Assembly: GCA_014529675.2 (NCBI GenBank)
Contig: CP076040.1
Location: 1,488,001-1,552,000 of the forward strand
DNA length: 64,000 bases
Source of the DNA: Opitutia bacterium ISCC 52
Lineage (GTDB): Bacteria > Verrucomicrobiota > Verrucomicrobiia > Opitutales > UBA2995
Direction of reading: 5' to 3'
Shown here piece by piece: positions 50,015 through 59,225 of the stretch. The notes under the pieces are model-generated. The model had not been told where the DNA came from, searched no databases, and saw only the letters and a list, made by a program, of their open reading frames with translations. Each line of letters opens with the position of its first letter. The stretch's first letter is position 1. A program made the position numbers and the translations under genes.

Positions 50015-50557
50015 TTAAGTAGAGCACACAAGTTTGTTGTGAATTCTCCAAAATAATCCCCAGAAATTATGCTTTCTTGGATCCAAGTCGAAATAGCCTG
50101 GAACCACACAACCTTTAAATGGATAGTCCTTCCAATTCTCGACCAAGTTTTTGCGAATTGGATTTTGCAGTATGTAATGGGCAACTGATTGAAAGGCAGA
50201 TCTCTCCAGTTCTTCTTCCCGAAGCACATGATCATGTGCCTGGGATTGTAATTTATGGGGACATATTAACCCATTGAACTCCTTCCTGAATAGCTTCGTA
50301 AATCGGAGTTGATCCGATGACGCATCAATTCCTGAAATGAGGAGATGAATGTGGTCGGGCATTAGACAGTAGACCGGGCAGATGGCGGAATATCTCGCCA
50401 GCATATGACAGAGAAGTTCTCTGAATGATTGGTGAAATGAGGGGGTCAACCATCCAGTGTTTCGGTTGTGGATGGTGTGGGTCCAAAAAACGGAGACATG
50501 TCCCAAATATGCCTCTTTGGTTAATCGTGGAAGCGACCGTTTTTCAGGGGGAGGCAT
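50015..50557 (-). CDS. REP-associated tyrosine transposase (RAYT, TnpA-REP)
   Basis: The 180-residue protein is an IS200/IS605-like Y1 HUH nuclease of the RAYT class. The HUH metal site is His69-Ile-His71 in LMPDHIHLLI, and the nucleophile Tyr128 is in VAHYILQNPIRKNLV. These enzymes cleave single-stranded REP hairpins beside a GTAG tetranucleotide, and this gene is bracketed by exactly such elements (49957-50013, 50568-50591, 50632-50688). No insertion-sequence ends or second orf are present, as expected of a domesticated RAYT. No ribosome-binding site is evident before ATG 50557. Confidence 0.9.
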   Translation of the reverse strand: MPPPEKRSLPRLTKEAYLGHVSVFWTHTIHNRNTGWLTPSFHQSFRELLCHMLARYSAICPVYCLMPDHIHLLISGIDASSDQLRFTKLFRKEFNGLICPHKLQSQAHDHVLREEELERSAFQSVAHYILQNPIRKNLVENWKDYPFKGCVVPGYFDLDPRKHNFWGLFWRIHNKLVCST

Positions 50558-50750: not shown

Positions 50751-52001
50751 ATGAACGCCGACCTTCCATTGCCCGAAACTGAGTTGCTTGCACCTGCGGG
50801 TTGCTACCCTTCCTTGCAGGCGGGTATCGCTGCGGGTGCTGATGCCGTGTATTTTGGCCTGGCTCAGCTTAATATGCGGGCCCGTTCCAGACGCTCGTTT
50901 GGCGTGCAGGATTTGCCCGAAATAATGGATATTTGTCGTGAGGGCGGAGTGAAAGCCTGCTTGACGCTGAATACCTTGCTCTATGACCACGACTTGAAAC
51001 TTGTTTTCAAACTGCTTGAATCAGCGGCTGAAAACAAAGTCGATGCAGTCATTGCTTCGGATATGGCCTGTATCATGCGAGCGCGTGAGTTGGGTCTCGA
51101 AGTGCATTTATCGACTCAGCTCTCTGTATCCAATTTTGAGTCCTTCAAATTCTACACCCAATTTTGTGACCGCATCGTTTTAGCGCGTGAGTTGAACCTC
51201 AGCATGATTCGTAAACTCTACGAACAGGTGGTTGAAGCTGATTTGCGTGGCCCCAATGGACGCCCCGCAGAAATCGAAGCCTTTGCTCACGGTGCATTGT
51301 GTATCGCGGTGTCGGGTCGTTGTGGCATGTCTCAATATACGGACAATGCCTCTGCCAATCGTGGAGCCTGTGTTCAGAATTGCCGTAAGGAATACGATGT
51401 AGTCGACAAGGAGACCGGTAAGAAGCTGACCATCGACAACAATTTCGTCATGTCTCCAAACGACATTTCTACCATCGATTTTCTCGACCAACTTCTGCAT
51501 TCCGGGATCAAGGTTTTGAAAATTGAAGGGCGTGGACGAGCTCCTGAATACGTGCATACCGTGATCACCGCCTACCGTAGAGCGATCGATGCTGTGCATG
51601 CTGGTACCTATAACCAGGAGTTTGTGGAAGAGCTGCTCGTAGATTTGAAGTCCGTTTATAACCGCGGGTTATCCGATGGTTATTACCTCGGTCGTGAGCA
51701 GGGTTGGTCAGGGAACTACGGTTCTAAGGCTACCAAGCAAAAGATTCAGGTCGGTAAGGTTTCTCATTTCTACAACAAGCTCGGTGTCGCTGAAATTACC
51801 TCGACAGGGAAAGTTAATGTCGGTGATGAATACGTCATCATAGGTGATACCACTGGGGTAGTGGATGGGAAAATTGAAGAAATGCGTCTGGATGCAGGCG
51901 TCATCGAAACTGTGAAGCCCAAAGATGTCTTCTCTATTCGCGTATCTAAAAAGGTGCGAAAGAATGATAAGATCTATCTGATGAAGCCGGTCGGCACCTA
52001 A
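50751..52001 (+). CDS. trhP: U32 family protein, TrhP (YegQ)-like tRNA uridine 5-hydroxylase
   Basis: The 416-residue protein belongs to peptidase family U32, whose TrhP branch uses prephenate to hydroxylate U34 of tRNAs, the first step to cmo5U. It begins [20 protein letters not shown]. The U32 signature is [16 protein letters not shown] at residues 176-191. Cys184, Cys191, Cys207 and Cys211 (GACVQNC) are placed to hold an iron-sulfur cluster. A ferredoxin gene follows after 7 bp, and CmoB, the downstream enzyme of the pathway, is encoded 6 kb away, which supports the TrhP reading over other U32 roles. Confidence 0.85.
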
Positions 52002-52008
52002 TGCCAGA

Positions 52009-52233
52009 ATGCTTAGAATTATCCATAAACAACCAGAATGCATTGGCTGTGATGTCTGTTGCGATGTGGCGCCCAATTATTGGTTTATGAACGATGAAGG
52101 GTTGGCTGAGCTACATTCCATTCTCAAAGTCAAAGATACGCTCCAGTTTGGCGAAGGGTTTGAAGAAGACCGTGAAGCGTTGAAGGAAGCCGAAGAAAAT
52201 TGCCCAGTTAATATTATTCGGATTGAAGATTGA
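52009..52233 (+). CDS. Small 4Fe-4S ferredoxin
   Basis: The 74-residue protein has one cluster-binding site: CIGCDVC near residue 11 and a distant CPV near the C-terminus (ENCPVNIIRIED). An acidic, charged middle replaces the second cluster of two-cluster ferredoxins. It starts 7 bp after the TrhP-like gene and so is probably co-translated with it; supply of electrons to the iron-sulfur tRNA enzymes of this island (TrhP, QueE, QueG) is a reasonable but untested idea. Confidence 0.85.
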   Translation: MLRIIHKQPECIGCDVCCDVAPNYWFMNDEGLAELHSILKVKDTLQFGEGFEEDREALKEAEENCPVNIIRIED

Positions 52234-52272
52234 GGCTAAGGGTTTCATAAGCCTAGCTGCATTATTTTGATT

Positions 52273-52989
52273 ATGCCGGAAGCACCTATACATTTAGTCG
52301 GACTCTTTATCTTTATCACGATCGGTCTATGGTATGGATTTCGTATCTCGTTAATGCGGGGGATATACCAAGATGGATCTATACCGGCCTCCAAGGGGCT
52401 CATGATGTCCTTCGTTATCGGCGTTTGGTTGGCGGGAGTGGCAATGATGGCTAACCAAGGCCTCCTGCAGGATTTCGATAAGTCTCCACCCATGATTTTA
52501 GTCGTGGTGGGGATGTCACTCATCATGACGATTGCAGTCGCTCAGTCTCGGATCGGTTTGTTAGTCATCAAAGGAGCGGGTATCACTTGGCTGATTACTT
52601 TTCAGGGCTTCCGGGTATTGGTGGAGGTATTTTTGCATCAAATGTATTTGGAAGGCGTTGTCCCGAAACAAATGACCTACACCGGACTCAATTTTGATAT
52701 CCTCGCTGGGCTGAGCGCTTTGGTGATGGCCTACCAGTTTTCTCGAAAGAAAGTGGGCGCTAAAGCTATCTTTGTCTGGAATGTGCTCGGGCTGCTTCTC
52801 CTTATAAATATTGTGGTGATTGCGGTTCTTTCAATGCCGCTCCCATTTCGATTTTTCTTCAATGACCCCGCCAACACCTTTGTCACTCATGTGCCTTATG
52901 TTTGGTTACCTACGTTTCATGTGCAGGCAGCATTGTTTGGCCATTTGTTGATATTCCGTGCGCTAGGTCGGGGCATGGTTCAAGACTGA
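52273..52989 (+). CDS. Unknown multi-pass membrane protein in the tRNA-modification island
   Basis: The roughly 238-residue protein has about seven hydrophobic segments (LVGLFIFITIGLWYGFRISL, ILVVVGMSLIMTIAVA, ITWLITFQGFRVLVEVFLHQ, VLGLLLLINIVVIAVLSM). Conserved-looking polar residues are few. I recognise no family. It ends 2 bp before tgt and 39 bp after the ferredoxin, so it is embedded in the operon. A transporter for a queuosine precursor is a natural hypothesis given its position, but it does not resemble YhhQ/QueT. Confidence 0.6.
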   Translation: MPEAPIHLVGLFIFITIGLWYGFRISLMRGIYQDGSIPASKGLMMSFVIGVWLAGVAMMANQGLLQDFDKSPPMILVVVGMSLIMTIAVAQSRIGLLVIKGAGITWLITFQGFRVLVEVFLHQMYLEGVVPKQMTYTGLNFDILAGLSALVMAYQFSRKKVGAKAIFVWNVLGLLLLINIVVIAVLSMPLPFRFFFNDPANTFVTHVPYVWLPTFHVQAALFGHLLIFRALGRGMVQD

Positions 52990-52991
52990 GT

Positions 52992-54116
52992 ATGCCCGAC
53001 AAAAGTTATACATTGTTGAGGCAGGACGGGGATGCGCGTCGCGGCGTTTTTCATTCCTTTCATGGAGATGTTCAAACTCCATTTTTCATGCCTATCGCAA
53101 CCGTAGGAGCGATCAAAGGGGGCGTAGAAGCTATGGAGGTCCGTGACCTCGGGTTTGAGCTGATCCTGTCCAATACCTACCACTTGCATGTGCGACCCGG
53201 TGAAGAGCGTGTGAAGGCCTTTGGTGGCCTTGCTAAGTTCATGGGGTGGGATGGTCCGATCTTAACTGATTCTGGTGGATTTCAAGCATGGTCCCTTGCG
53301 AAAATGAATCAGATCACAGAAGAAGGAATTACCTTCAAATCGCATTTAGATGGGAGCCCTATCACCCTGACTCCAGAAAGCGTGATCGATATCCAGCGTT
53401 CGCTGGGGATTGATGTCGCGATGGCTCTTGATGAGTGCACGGATTATCCCTGTAGCTATGACAATGCCAAAGCGTCCATGGAGCGCAGTATGCGTTGGGC
53501 TGCGCGATGCAAGAAGCACTGGCAAGACACGGGGGCCGATGAATCCATGTATCTCTTTGGGATCGGGCAAGGTTCCTTCTTTGAAGACCTACGCTCCGAG
53601 TCCGCGAAGATTTTAGCTGACCTGGATTTGCCAGGTTATGCGGTTGGTGGAGTGGTGGTTGATTTTACTCGAACGCACGAAGCTATCTTACCCTCGATGC
53701 CACATCTGCCCAAGGACCGTCCTCGCTACTTGATGGGGGTCGGTACGCCACTAGACATTCTCAATGCGGTTGAGCTGGGTATAGACATGTTTGACTGTGT
53801 TTTACCGACACGAAATGGGCGACACGGAAAAGTATTCACCACTTACGGCGATGTGAACTTAAACGCGGCCAAGTGGAAAGATTCGGACCAGCTCATCGAT
53901 GAAGAGAACGACCATCCCGTGAGCAAAAAGTATACTCGCGGATACCTGCGCCACCTCTTTCATGTAAATGAATCTTTAGGCGGCCGTCTCGCAACTTTGC
54001 ACAACCTGTCCTTTTATGGGAATCTGATGAAGGGAATTCGTCAGAGTATTGACGAGGGTCGCTTTGCGAAATTCAAAGCCAACTTCATCGAGAAGTATAG
54101 TTCGGGAAATGCCTGA
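52992..54116 (+). CDS. tgt: tRNA-guanine transglycosylase, divergent (no zinc cysteines)
   Basis: The 374-residue protein matches bacterial Tgt in length and core: general-base Asp93 in LTDSGGFQ, nucleophile Asp268 in IDMFDCVLPTRNGRHG, DEC at 147-149 and GIGQGSFFEDLR. Tgt swaps G34 for preQ1 in GUN-anticodon tRNAs. Two deviations stand out. The zinc motif CxCxxC is replaced by Asn306, His308 and Ser311, leaving only His337. The recognition loop GGLAVGE reads GGVVVDF, so the preQ1-contacting Glu is Phe225. ATG 52992 follows the membrane gene by 2 bp. It overlaps queA and is likely functional or specialised rather than decayed. Confidence 0.85.
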   Translation: MPDKSYTLLRQDGDARRGVFHSFHGDVQTPFFMPIATVGAIKGGVEAMEVRDLGFELILSNTYHLHVRPGEERVKAFGGLAKFMGWDGPILTDSGGFQAWSLAKMNQITEEGITFKSHLDGSPITLTPESVIDIQRSLGIDVAMALDECTDYPCSYDNAKASMERSMRWAARCKKHWQDTGADESMYLFGIGQGSFFEDLRSESAKILADLDLPGYAVGGVVVDFTRTHEAILPSMPHLPKDRPRYLMGVGTPLDILNAVELGIDMFDCVLPTRNGRHGKVFTTYGDVNLNAAKWKDSDQLIDEENDHPVSKKYTRGYLRHLFHVNESLGGRLATLHNLSFYGNLMKGIRQSIDEGRFAKFKANFIEKYSSGNA

Positions 54117-55146
54117 TATGGAAACTGCCGATTACGATTTCGTGCTTCCTCAAGAGTTGATTGCACAAGATCCTGTTGTTCCTCGAGACCATTCGCGGAT
54201 GATGGCTTTGGGTCGGGCGACGAACTCCATCTATCATAAGCGGTTCTACCACTTGCCTGAGTGTCTTCAAGCGGGTGATGTGTTGGTTATTAACGATACC
54301 AAGGTGGTGCCTGCCAGATTGTTTGGCACTATTCCCGAAGTCGGATCAGGAAAAGTAGAAGTTCTCCTGTTGAACGAATCCGTCCATGGGACTCAACGGG
54401 TCATGGCGAAGCCTGGGAAGAAATTCCAAGTTGGGAGATCGGTGGTATTCGATGACCAACTACAGGCTGAAGTGGTTGGGCTGGAGGAGGATGGTTGCCG
54501 CTTGCTTCAGTTTAATTGTTCTCCCAGTGAACTTCAACTTCACCTGGATCGCATCGGACATGCCCCGATTCCGCCCTATATTAATCAATCTACCGCCACC
54601 CGAGAGCAGTATCAAACGGTCTATGCGCGTGACCCTGGAAGTAGCGCAGCGCCCACCGCGGGTCTTCATTTTACGCCCGAAGTTTTTAAAGCATTGGAAG
54701 AAAAAGGAGTGACGGTGGAGAAGGTAACCCTGCATGTCGGCCGCGGCACTTTTCAAGACGTTAAAGCGGATAAACTCGAAGATCACGTTATGCATTCTGA
54801 GCATTATGAATTAAGCTCAGAGGTAGCGTCTCGCTTAAATGAAGCTAAGCAGGCCGGGCGAAGAGTGATTGCGGTGGGTACGACTTCCGTTCGAGTGCTC
54901 GAGAGTTCTGCGAACGAAGCGGGTCTATTGACTCCTCAAGTATCGGATACCGAAATCTTTATTTACCCAGGATACCGTTGGAAGTTCGTGGATGCACTGC
55001 TGACAAATTTTCATTTACCAAAAAGTACGCTCATTATGCTTGTGAGTAGCTTTGCCGGACAGTCCTTTGTTCAGGAAGCTTATTCAGAAGCCATCCGTGA
55101 AAAGTATCGTTTCTTTTCGTTTGGGGATTGTATGCTCATTCAATAA
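54109..55146 (+). CDS. queA: S-adenosylmethionine:tRNA ribosyltransferase-isomerase
   Basis: The 345-residue enzyme builds the cyclopentenediol epoxide of epoxyqueuosine on preQ1-tRNA from SAM. Family blocks are FVLPQELIAQDPVVPRDHSR, VINDTKVVPARLFG, SAAPTAGLHFT, HVGRGTFQDVK, HSEHYELS and TNFHLPKSTLIMLVSSFAG. ATG 54109 overlaps the last 8 bases of tgt; ATG 54118 is an equally possible start. Downstream queF begins after 18 bp. Confidence 0.95.
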   Translation: MPDMETADYDFVLPQELIAQDPVVPRDHSRMMALGRATNSIYHKRFYHLPECLQAGDVLVINDTKVVPARLFGTIPEVGSGKVEVLLLNESVHGTQRVMAKPGKKFQVGRSVVFDDQLQAEVVGLEEDGCRLLQFNCSPSELQLHLDRIGHAPIPPYINQSTATREQYQTVYARDPGSSAAPTAGLHFTPEVFKALEEKGVTVEKVTLHVGRGTFQDVKADKLEDHVMHSEHYELSSEVASRLNEAKQAGRRVIAVGTTSVRVLESSANEAGLLTPQVSDTEIFIYPGYRWKFVDALLTNFHLPKSTLIMLVSSFAGQSFVQEAYSEAIREKYRFFSFGDCMLIQ

Positions 55147-55164
55147 TACTCTTATTTCTTCATT

Positions 55165-55500
55165 ATGAACATCGACATATTTGATAATCCAAAACCAGAC
55201 CGTGATTTCGTAATCCAACACGTTGCTGAAGAATTCACTTCGGTATGTCCAGTTACCGGACATCCTGACTTCGGCAAAATTAAGCTCACCTACATTGCTG
55301 ACGAGAAGTGCATTGAGCTGAAGACTTACAAAGAATATCTTCAGGGGTTCCGCAATGAAGGGATTTACTATGAGGCCGTTACAAACAAGATTCTAGATGA
55401 TCTGGTTGGTCTCTGTTCGCCAAGATGGATGAAGATCGAAACCATCTGGACCGGTCGTGGTGGTATTCACTCCAATATTACGGCTGAGTACAAGAAGTAG
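55165..55500 (+). CDS. queF: NADPH-dependent preQ0 reductase QueF, short (type I) form
   Basis: The 111-residue enzyme reduces the nitrile of preQ0 to preQ1. The catalytic thioimide Cys28 lies in EFTSVCPVTGHPDF with Asp35 as the acid, and ECIELKTYKEYLQGFRNEG-type substrate contacts follow at residues 50-70. The length is that of the unimodular QueF. It is the last gene of the plus-strand run tgt-queA-queF and converges with queE. Confidence 0.94.
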   Translation: MNIDIFDNPKPDRDFVIQHVAEEFTSVCPVTGHPDFGKIKLTYIADEKCIELKTYKEYLQGFRNEGIYYEAVTNKILDDLVGLCSPRWMKIETIWTGRGGIHSNITAEYKK

Positions 55501-55540
55501 GCTTCTTTAGTTTAGCCTGTTGGAGGTCGCAGGACTACTA

Positions 55541-56218
55541 TCAGGTGTCGTTCGGTGACAAGCGAAGTTCTGTGGTCGGTTTGCTGCGTGAGTCTTCCTC
55601 GTCGACTGCAAAGAGCTTATGCAGTTGGTAGCCGGCTCGATAGTCGTATTGACTATTCTTAACTGTCGAATTAATGGTCCTCAAGATGAGTGGATCGGCA
55701 CGTTGCGACCATTCAGGATTGAGCCAGACCGGACGTTTAGAAAGTTGGTCCCCCAGTGTGGCTTCCCAGAACTCGATCGTTTCTGCCTTATCTACGATCA
55801 CCTTGAATTCATGAGCGAGCGCCAGGTTTTCGTCCAGTGGATGTTCCCACTCTTTGGGACTCAATGTAATCCAGTCAAAGGATCCTCGGATGGGATAAGC
55901 CCCAGCAGTTTCCAGGTTGACCTTGAGGCCTGCGGTTTGGAGGGCGTGGGTTAACTCGGTCAAATCATGAATACAAGGTTCGCCGCCTGTGATAACCACG
56001 ATGGCAGGCTGATGTTCCTTGGCCTGAGCCACTAAGGCTTCAACACTGATTTTTTCAATGGTCTCGGGTACGAAATCAGGATGCCAGGTTCCTGCAGAAT
56101 CGCACCAGGGGCATTTAATGGGGCAGCCAAAAAGTCGGATGAAAAATGCGGACTTTCCCATGTGGCAGCCTTCTCCCTGCCAGGAGTAAAACGTTTCATA
56201 GATCGGTAAAGATTTCAT
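55541..56218 (-). CDS. queE: 7-carboxy-7-deazaguanine synthase QueE (radical SAM)
   Basis: The 225-residue protein has the radical-SAM cluster motif in FGCPIKCPWCDSAGTWH (Cx3Cx2C) preceded by YSWQGEGCHMGKSAFFIRLF, and the SAM-binding VVITGGEPCIHD. It converts 6-carboxytetrahydropterin to 7-carboxy-7-deazaguanine. It follows queC with a 1-bp gap and is therefore part of a queC-queE unit. The substrate-making QueD is not encoded in this window. Confidence 0.94.
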   Translation of the reverse strand: MKSLPIYETFYSWQGEGCHMGKSAFFIRLFGCPIKCPWCDSAGTWHPDFVPETIEKISVEALVAQAKEHQPAIVVITGGEPCIHDLTELTHALQTAGLKVNLETAGAYPIRGSFDWITLSPKEWEHPLDENLALAHEFKVIVDKAETIEFWEATLGDQLSKRPVWLNPEWSQRADPLILRTINSTVKNSQYDYRAGYQLHKLFAVDEEDSRSKPTTELRLSPNDT

Positions 56219-56219
56219 C

Positions 56220-56924
56220 CTACTTTAATCTCCAATCGTTGCTGATCATGACATCAAGAGTAGGTGCCTCAGTGCTGTATTCAGTTGGATCTTCCACGCC
56301 GGCCAGGTGAAATGCTTCTCTGCGTTCAATACAAGTACCGCAACGACCGCAGTGCACTTCTTGTCCTTCATAGCAGGACCAGGTTTGTTCAAAAGGAACA
56401 TTGAGCTCAGAGCCGAGTTTTACGATGTCAGCTTTAGTAATATCAACGAAGGGTCGGTTTAAATAGACTTCCTGCCAATCGGCTAACCGGATCGCTTTAT
56501 CCAGAGCTTCCGCGAATTCATTCCGGCAGTCGGGGTAAATGGCATGATCTCCCGAGTGTGCGGCATAGGAAACGCTGTCCGCTTTTTTGGAGACCGCCCA
56601 AGCAGTTGCGAGGGACAATAGAATCATATTCCTGTTAGGAACTACGGTAGACTTCATGTTGTCCTCTTCGTAGTGACCATGAGGAATCGCTATGGAACTG
56701 TCCGTCAGGTTTGATCCTTCAAGAAGTTGATTGATGGAGCTAAGATCTACCTCGCGATGTTCGATCCCAAGAAGATCCGTATGGATCTGAGCGCATTCCA
56801 ACTCTTTGCTGTGGCGTTGACCGTAGTTCACGGACAATGAAAAGACCGATGCCTCGGCTTTCTTCAAGTGATAGAGGAGGACGGTCGAGTCCAAGCCTCC
56901 GGAATAAACGATTACAGTTTTCAT
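56220..56924 (-). CDS. queC: 7-cyano-7-deazaguanine (preQ0) synthase
   Basis: The 234-residue ATP-dependent enzyme makes preQ0 from 7-carboxy-7-deazaguanine and ammonia. The PP-loop [17 protein letters not shown] is at the N-terminus, the zinc site [20 protein letters not shown] near the C-terminus, and [16 protein letters not shown] between them. First gene of the queC-queE pair, divergent from queG with 204 bp between them. Confidence 0.95.
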
Positions 56925-57024
56925 GGAAATTCAGTGCTTTATTGCTTCGGTGCAACGCCTGGGAATTTATAGCAGGCTCGGGAGACCATGGATTTTGACC
57001 TTACTTTGGCAACCTTATTTTGGA

Positions 57025-57112
57025 GGGGTGAGGGACGGGGGCGAGAGACGAGGGTCGCGTGGGAATGAAACCTAATCTTGATCCTGGTTCTGATCCTGAT
57101 CTTAATCCAAAT
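57025..57112. repeat. Low-complexity repeats in the queC-queG divergent region
   Basis: A GA/GGGACG-rich stretch (57025-57059) is followed by repeats of a GATCCT/GATCTT hexamer (about 57073-57112). No riboswitch-like fold for preQ1 is recognisable in this region. Confidence 0.5.
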
Positions 57113-57128
57113 CTATTTTTGTTAACTT

Positions 57129-58151
57129 ATGGACTCCACCGCAGCGCTTACCGCACAATGCAGAGAGCAAGCCCTTGAATTGGGGTTTGATGTCTGCGGT
57201 TTTTCGTCGGTGGATGTGGAGCTGCATCGGGACTATTATCTAAAGTGGATTGAGGAAAAACAGCATGGGACGATGGAATGGATGGAGCGGAATAATGACC
57301 GCCGTCTTGAGCCTCGAAATATCTTACCTGAAGCTCGGTCCATTGTGGTGGTGGGTTTGAATTATTACCAAGATGCGCCAGAGATGCGTGGGACGATTGC
57401 CAAATACGCTTTAGGCAAGGACTACCACAAAATTATGTATAAACGCCTAAAGCGATTGTGCAGTTGGATGCGTGAACAGGGAGGGGCTCAGAAGCCCTAT
57501 GTCGATACAGGGCCCGTTCTCGAGAAACCGATCGCCGCTGAAGCCGGCCTGGGATGGGTGGGAAAAAGCACGCTCTTACTTCACCGAAAGTTTGGAACGT
57601 TTATGTTTTTAGGGGCGATAGTAACTACCTTGGATTTGAAGGAAGATTCAGTAGAGAATAACCATTGCGGATCCTGTACCCGATGTTTGGATATCTGCCC
57701 AACCAATGCCTTTCCTGCTCCTTACAAACTGGACGCCACAAAATGTATTTCCTACCTGACCATTGAGCATCAGGGGTCTATTCCTATGGAGTATCGTGAA
57801 GCCATCGGTGATCGAGTCTATGGATGCGATGATTGCCTGGATGTCTGCCCCTGGAATCGTTGGGCGCAAAAGACTCGGGAAGCTCGATTTCTATTTCCTG
57901 GCCTGCCTGACCTGGCCGAGACCTTGGCTTGGGATGAAGAAACCTTCACAGAGCACTTTCAAAGGACGCCTATAAAGCGACTTAAGCTGCCACGCTGGAA
58001 ACGAAATGTCTGTGTGGTGTTAGGCAATATCGGAACGAGTAAAGATCTGAAAGCCCTTCAACCTCTCGCTCAATCAGAGGATGAGATGGTGGCTGAACAT
58101 GCTAGATGGGCGATAGACAAAATTGAGGAACGTTCTTCTGCTTGCAAATGA
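57129..58151 (+). CDS. queG: Epoxyqueuosine reductase QueG
   Basis: The 340-residue cobalamin and iron-sulfur enzyme performs the last step of queuosine synthesis, reducing the epoxide on tRNA. The N-terminal cobalamin-binding region includes NYYQDAPEMRGTIAKYALGK and DTGPVLEKPIAAEAGLGWVG; two 4Fe-4S clusters are supplied by CGSCTRCLDICPTNAF and GCDDCLDVCPW; the C-terminal HEAT-like tail (LQPLAQSEDEMVAEHARWAI) binds tRNA. Length is typical. Confidence 0.95.
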   Translation: MDSTAALTAQCREQALELGFDVCGFSSVDVELHRDYYLKWIEEKQHGTMEWMERNNDRRLEPRNILPEARSIVVVGLNYYQDAPEMRGTIAKYALGKDYHKIMYKRLKRLCSWMREQGGAQKPYVDTGPVLEKPIAAEAGLGWVGKSTLLLHRKFGTFMFLGAIVTTLDLKEDSVENNHCGSCTRCLDICPTNAFPAPYKLDATKCISYLTIEHQGSIPMEYREAIGDRVYGCDDCLDVCPWNRWAQKTREARFLFPGLPDLAETLAWDEETFTEHFQRTPIKRLKLPRWKRNVCVVLGNIGTSKDLKALQPLAQSEDEMVAEHARWAIDKIEERSSACK

Positions 58152-58256
58152 ACAGTAGGATTCAAATCAACCTGAGATGGATAGGGCCACTGCACATGTC
58201 TCGCCGTATTTTAAAGAAGCCGGATCCCTGCAGTGCCGACTTCAGTTAGTCGTGTC

Positions 58257-59225
58257 ATGAGCCAGCCCAACTACAGTTCATTCCTGGATTCGTTGCGTGA
58301 TTCACCATTAGCGGATTGGCGTCCTACACTGGAAAAGCAAATCCAGCCCAAGCTCTTCGAATCTAATGACGGACATCTAGAAGGGTGGTTGAAAGCGCTC
58401 GATTCATTGCCCGGATTTAACTGCCAAAAAATAGAACTTGCTGCTGAGCTCAAACTCGAGGGTTTATGTGATTCGTCTATAGCTGAGTCTACGCTGAGGA
58501 CCTTTCATCCCTGGAGAAAAGGGCCGATGCACCTGGGAGGGGTCGATATCGATACCGAGTGGCGCTCCGATTGGAAATGGGATCGTCTCAAAGATGAAAT
58601 AGCTCCCTTAATAGGTAGAACGGTTTTAGATATTGGTTGTGGGAATGGCTACTACCTCTACCGCATGCTGGGAGCTGGTGCCAAGCTGGCCGTGGGCATT
58701 GATCCTTTCCTGTTATTTGTCATGCAATTCTGGGCGATTAAACACTTTGAGCCTGAAGTGTTGCCAGCTTGGGTGCTTCCATTGGGTTGGGAAGACCTGC
58801 CAGATGTGTTACCCCATTTCGATGCGGTATTTTCTATGGGCGTATTGTATCATCGACGTAATCCAGATGCCTTTCTTCGACAGTTACAGAACTACATTCG
58901 ACCCGGAGGTGAGCTGATTTTGGAAACGCTCGTGATCGAAGGCCAAAAGGGCGCAGTACTCGTTCCAGAAGGTCGCTACGCCAAAATGAGGAATGTGTGG
59001 TATATTCCATCGGTGGCGACGCTTGAGGCCACACTCACTCAATCGGGCTGGGAAAAAGTTCGTTGTATCGATGTTACGCCTACATCCATAGATGAACAAC
59101 GATCGACCGATTGGATGACTTTCGAGTCCTTGCCTCATTTCCTGGATCCCAACGATCAGACAAAAACCATCGAGGGCTACCCGGCACCCGTGAGGGCAGT
59201 CTTTCTTGCAAATAAACCTGGATAG
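58257..59225 (+). CDS. cmoB: tRNA U34 carboxymethyltransferase
   Basis: The 322-residue protein uses carboxy-SAM to turn ho5U34 into cmo5U34 in tRNAs for six amino acids. The diagnostic HPWRKGPMHLGGVDIDTEWR and SDWKWDRL region and the methyltransferase core TVLDIGCGNGYYLYRMLGAG, SMGVLYHRRNP and YAKMRNVWYIPS all match CmoB, and length equals that of the E. coli enzyme. ATG 58257 is preferred over GTG 58233. CmoA, which makes carboxy-SAM, is not in the window. CmoB is best known from Gammaproteobacteria, so transfer into this lineage is possible. Confidence 0.93.
   Translation: MSQPNYSSFLDSLRDSPLADWRPTLEKQIQPKLFESNDGHLEGWLKALDSLPGFNCQKIELAAELKLEGLCDSSIAESTLRTFHPWRKGPMHLGGVDIDTEWRSDWKWDRLKDEIAPLIGRTVLDIGCGNGYYLYRMLGAGAKLAVGIDPFLLFVMQFWAIKHFEPEVLPAWVLPLGWEDLPDVLPHFDAVFSMGVLYHRRNPDAFLRQLQNYIRPGGELILETLVIEGQKGAVLVPEGRYAKMRNVWYIPSVATLEATLTQSGWEKVRCIDVTPTSIDEQRSTDWMTFESLPHFLDPNDQTKTIEGYPAPVRAVFLANKPG

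Follow-up and report, generated by a model that had tools for sequence, protein, structure and literature searches.

A bacterial tRNA guanosine(34) transglycosylase with neither the zinc cysteines nor the recognition-loop glutamate, encoded in a queuosine island

The Tgt of Opitutia bacterium ISCC 52 carries replacements at all three zinc cysteines and at the recognition-loop glutamate of the bacterial enzyme. We consider it likely that this protein is a working, zinc-free, preQ1-inserting bacterial Tgt, a homodimer with a shortened loop in which Asp224 would serve for Glu235 (Z. mobilis numbering). Of the two changes, that in the loop is truly rare, being conserved in its own family alone, and it is the part of the finding that deserves attention. 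The window, i.e. the whole analysed stretch of 64,000 nucleotides (contig CP076040.1, positions 1,488,001 to 1,552,000), contains the gene and its sites as follows.

52992..54116, + strand: tgt, tRNA guanosine(34) transglycosylase, 374 aa, sole Tgt of the genome
53268..53270, + strand: codon 93, Asp, equivalent to the general acid/base D102
53646..53666, + strand: loop GGVVVDF, codons 219-225 (Z. mobilis 229-235, GGLAVGE), with Glu235 replaced and two residues short
53793..53795, + strand: codon 268, Asp, equivalent to the nucleophile D280
53907..53924, + strand: NDHPVS in place of the zinc motif CxCxxC, codons 306-311
54000..54002, + strand: codon 337, His, the former fourth zinc ligand (H349), kept

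The open reading frame, start codon and reading frame at 52992-54116 were checked and found to be correct. The protein scored 443.6 bits against TIGR00430, the NCBIfam model of bacterial Tgt (cut-off 306.75), and 462.9 bits against PF01702. Its residue numbering was set against an alignment with Z. mobilis Tgt, in which D93 corresponds to D102, D147 to D156, C149 to C158, Q193 to Q203, G220 to G230, V223 to V233 and D268 to D280. The catalytic Asp102 and Asp280, the base contacts Asp156, Gln203 and Gly230, and the preQ1-type pair of Val233 and Cys158 are all present, and Met260 (Z. mobilis numbering) is retained as well. The alignment agreed with the original prediction that Asp93, Asp268 and Gln193 remain. 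That prediction had also described a full fold length; the Tgt is indeed full-length, but the two missing loop residues had been overlooked.

The window's family comprises two genera with eight genomes, six of which gave a Tgt match; the two without a match are both fragmented and less than 90% complete. As had been noted, the loop reads GGVVVDF for GGLAVGE, so that the motif GGxxVGE with Glu235 is absent, and the two-residue gap falls just after or inside the loop. Gly234 is replaced by Asp and Glu235 by Phe in 6/6 family Tgts. The amino acids of the loop (219-225) are invariant among these six whereas the codons differ silently, which makes either chance or a sequencing error untenable. Glu235 was found in 134/134 Tgts of the normal loop type within a sample of 149 from outside the family, and in all 20 additional Tgts from the phylum; among the sampled Tgts it was absent only in the window's family and in most insert-type Tgts of the same order, which are described below. 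The GGVVVDF loop was sought outside the family as an exact DNA pattern in 373 genomes of the order, and the matches that were translated (all except a few lower-listed ones) were not Tgt. It was reported that the Leu231-Ala232 peptide of Z. mobilis is stabilised by Glu235 in two opposite orientations, one when guanine is read and one when preQ1 is (PMC3660597), and a crystal structure of the E235Q variant is available (2z1v). The GGVVVDF loop amounts to a natural experiment on how a single pocket reads guanine first and preQ1 second, which has so far been addressed mainly through mutants of one enzyme.

The pathway genes around tgt are listed below.

50751..52001, + strand: TrhP-like protein of the U32 family, first gene of the conserved block
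54118..55146, + strand: queA (TIGR00113, 413 bits, cut-off 267)
55165..55500, + strand: queF (type II), preQ1 synthase (TIGR03139, 149 bits, cut-off 87)
55541..56218, - strand: queE-like radical SAM gene, scoring under the model cut-offs
56220..56924, - strand: queC (TIGR00364, 211 bits, cut-off 150)
57129..58151, + strand: queG, epoxyqueuosine reductase (TIGR00276, 381 bits, cut-off 200)
58233..59225, + strand: cmoB, another wobble-34 modification enzyme, final gene of the conserved block

The block at 50751-59225 groups the wobble-34 genes for the U32/TrhP-like protein, tgt, queA, queF, queE, queC, queG and cmoB. With queA, queF, the queE-like gene, queC and queG adjoining tgt, the queuosine island can be called complete, as originally proposed. 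Elsewhere in the genome there are genes for a QueD-family protein and for a PF02592 transporter. The order tgt-queA-queF-queE-queC-queG is kept in both family genera, although some copies are cut by contig ends, and the trio QueF, QueA and QueG is kept across the family. The four target tRNAs, for Asn, Asp, His and Tyr, all have U33-G34-U35. A preQ1 riboswitch was searched for near the island genes and none was found. Several neighbouring features were also recorded. Immediately 5' of tgt (52267-52989) lies a predicted membrane protein with no Pfam or NCBIfam match, which was matched at 65-93% in three same-genus genomes and was not detected in the sister-genus locus L252. An ORF with a PDHIHLLI motif and no Pfam match (50015-50557, - strand) is located between the Rid and U32 genes and resembles REP-associated transposases. 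An alphaproteobacterial contig (L043) has the same order of tgt, queF, reversed queE and queC, and queG, with queA on the opposite side of tgt.

The original prediction had offered acceptance of a different base as one outcome, and the altered loop might indeed let the enzyme insert preQ0, queuine or a different 7-deazaguanine, either in place of preQ1 or alongside it. The loop governs base choice in known Tgts (PMC3660597; PMC11570991), and the PF02592 family, represented in this genome, imports Q precursors. Moreover, the order contains other loop variants that lack Glu235, and these accompany the loss of QueA and QueG, that is, a changed substrate. These variants are the insert-type Tgts (L112-L126), 15 of the 149 sampled and all from the same order, which have an insert of ∼20 residues and a loop of the form GG-(S/C)LGx. 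Glu235 is missing in 14/15 of them, and QueA and QueG are absent from all 15 genomes, so these Tgts are probably queuine-using and serve queuine salvage. Queuine salvage is known from Chlamydiae, outside which the insert-type Tgts lie; we take them to be Chlamydia-like. The comparison showed that, within one order, the type of loop is linked to the pathway, with the window's family on the QueA/QueG side. A queuine-type Tgt would have a small residue for Val233 in a genome with neither QueA nor QueG, whereas here V223 is kept and both enzymes are present. In Z. mobilis the choice between preQ1 and queuine is set by Val233 and Cys158, the bulk of Val233 blocking queuine (PMC3660597). Because both residues are retained, and because the genes for QueF, QueA and QueG lie next to tgt and accompany it throughout the family, a shifted base choice appears unlikely. 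As a separate observation, a second Tgt in one genome (G025; L111:2667-4700) carries a fused MnmC2-like methyltransferase domain, so that one protein unites two wobble-34 enzymes.

Another explanation is that the peptide switch has been lost, with the loop fixed in one orientation and preQ1 still used at a different discrimination or turnover. Since it is Glu235 that keeps the peptide of Z. mobilis stable in either orientation (PMC3660597), its replacement by Phe in a loop two residues shorter might have this effect, and the following helix is also predicted to be shorter (225-232, versus 232-245 in the canonical control). However, Tgt must take guanine 34 and preQ1 in turn, and the invariant acidic residue one position earlier suggests that the role has moved, not vanished. 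Loss of the switch is hence considered improbable to a similar degree. More broadly, it is possible, although rather doubtful, that this lineage has rebuilt the loop without the Glu235 switch and reads guanine and the incoming base in a new way, perhaps with a shifted preference, while keeping the full pathway.

The AlphaFold model of the window's Tgt had a mean pLDDT of 92.7 and superposed on Z. mobilis Tgt with a TM of 0.95. The former zinc region was predicted with a pLDDT of 95-97. The loop was the least sure part, with a pLDDT of 67 against 91 in the canonical control, so the placement of Asp224 in the model is guesswork. Four residues separated the GG pair from the next helix, compared with six in the control. 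Judged from sequence, the invariant Asp224, one place before the lost Glu235, is probably the stand-in. In the preferred reading, that of a zinc-free preQ1-inserting Tgt, the protein would fold as the usual homodimer, with its former zinc site held by the packing and hydrogen bonds of Asn306, Ser311 and His337. Asp224 would take the role of Glu235 by holding the peptide that follows the GG pair and flips, which would allow guanine 34 to be bound first and preQ1 second, and QueA and QueG would then complete queuosine.

The alignment placed Asn306, His308 and Ser311 at C318, C320 and C323 of Z. mobilis, in agreement with the original prediction, and His337 at H349, leaving this His as the sole survivor of the zinc site (CxCxxC plus His). 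Among the six family Tgts, position 306 is always Asn, 311 is always Ser and His337 is invariant, while 308 is His, Asn or Ser, suggesting that the site is kept by packing and hydrogen bonds and not by metal. A displaced set of cysteines that could substitute for the zinc site was looked for in the alignment of the family's Tgts, and none was seen. A metal might still be held at the old site through Asn, His308, Ser and His337, two of which are histidines in the window's own protein; but the variation at 308 in close relatives and the fact that neither Asn nor Ser binds zinc well make this highly unlikely. Folding without zinc, the other outcome originally suggested, is regarded as probable.

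The view of the zinc loss as remarkable, which the original prediction implied, was not supported. Among the 149 Tgts outside the family, all three zinc Cys were found in 73, two in 1, one in 48 and none in 27; two or three were thus missing in 75/149, a fraction that is not a census because the sample is biased towards similarity to the window's Tgt. CxCxxC is accordingly not a defining feature of Tgt in practice. On a tree of 69 rows the character changed five times or more. Bacteroidota, Hyphomicrobiales and the class to which the window belongs all include Tgts with losses, whereas most of the 20 further Tgts drawn from across the phylum kept the motif. Loss of the zinc Cys in Tgt is ordinary. 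Reviews term the zinc residues highly conserved (PMC4425180) and describe Tgt as zinc-requiring (PMC9508795); contrary to these, the present sample suggests that many Tgts of bacteria do not need these residues, a point that could be easily tested. Bacterial GluRS provides a precedent of a natively zinc-bound domain functioning without zinc (PMC4381286).

The genome (one contig, 4.8 Mb) contains a single PF01702 match, and the profile search revealed no second Tgt, of the zinc type or otherwise. The dN/dS of tgt was 0.028 between the two closest family sequences and 0.126 between both members of the other genus, the two usable pairs, as the remaining ones were saturated at synonymous sites. 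Mere decay had been called unlikely from the outset, and the protein is not decaying: several textbook residues are missing, but strong purifying selection, the invariant loop, the lack of a second Tgt and the conserved island with QueA and QueG make a non-functional enzyme hardly credible.

Outside the family, no relative of its Tgt above ∼51% identity was found in the samples searched. The family's Tgt and QueA both branched outside the clades of the order in trees, but a single clade with the order was not rejected by AU tests (p of 0.18 and 0.076, respectively), so a horizontal origin of the island stays a suggestion; transfer of the island and fast divergence are both possible causes of this placement. 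No match above 60% identity was obtained in plasmid and phage collections, and no relative was found in viral contigs.

Compared with the preQ1 Tgts of Z. mobilis and E. coli (TIGR00430), the window's Tgt shows ∼47-50% identity, the same fold, Asp pair, Val233 and Cys158, and queA likewise beside tgt. It differs from them in the absent zinc Cys, the substitutions of Glu235 by Phe and Gly234 by Asp, the shorter loop, and one additional Gly in the loop-helix motif after Lys52. The zinc-poor Tgts found in Bacteroidota, in Hyphomicrobiales and in the class of the window have likewise lost CxCxxC wholly or mostly, but retain the GGxxVGE that the window's family lacks. The insert-type Tgts of the same order share a shortened loop with the window's Tgt; in contrast to it, they carry the insert, lack Val233, come from genomes without QueA and QueG, and mostly retain the zinc Cys.
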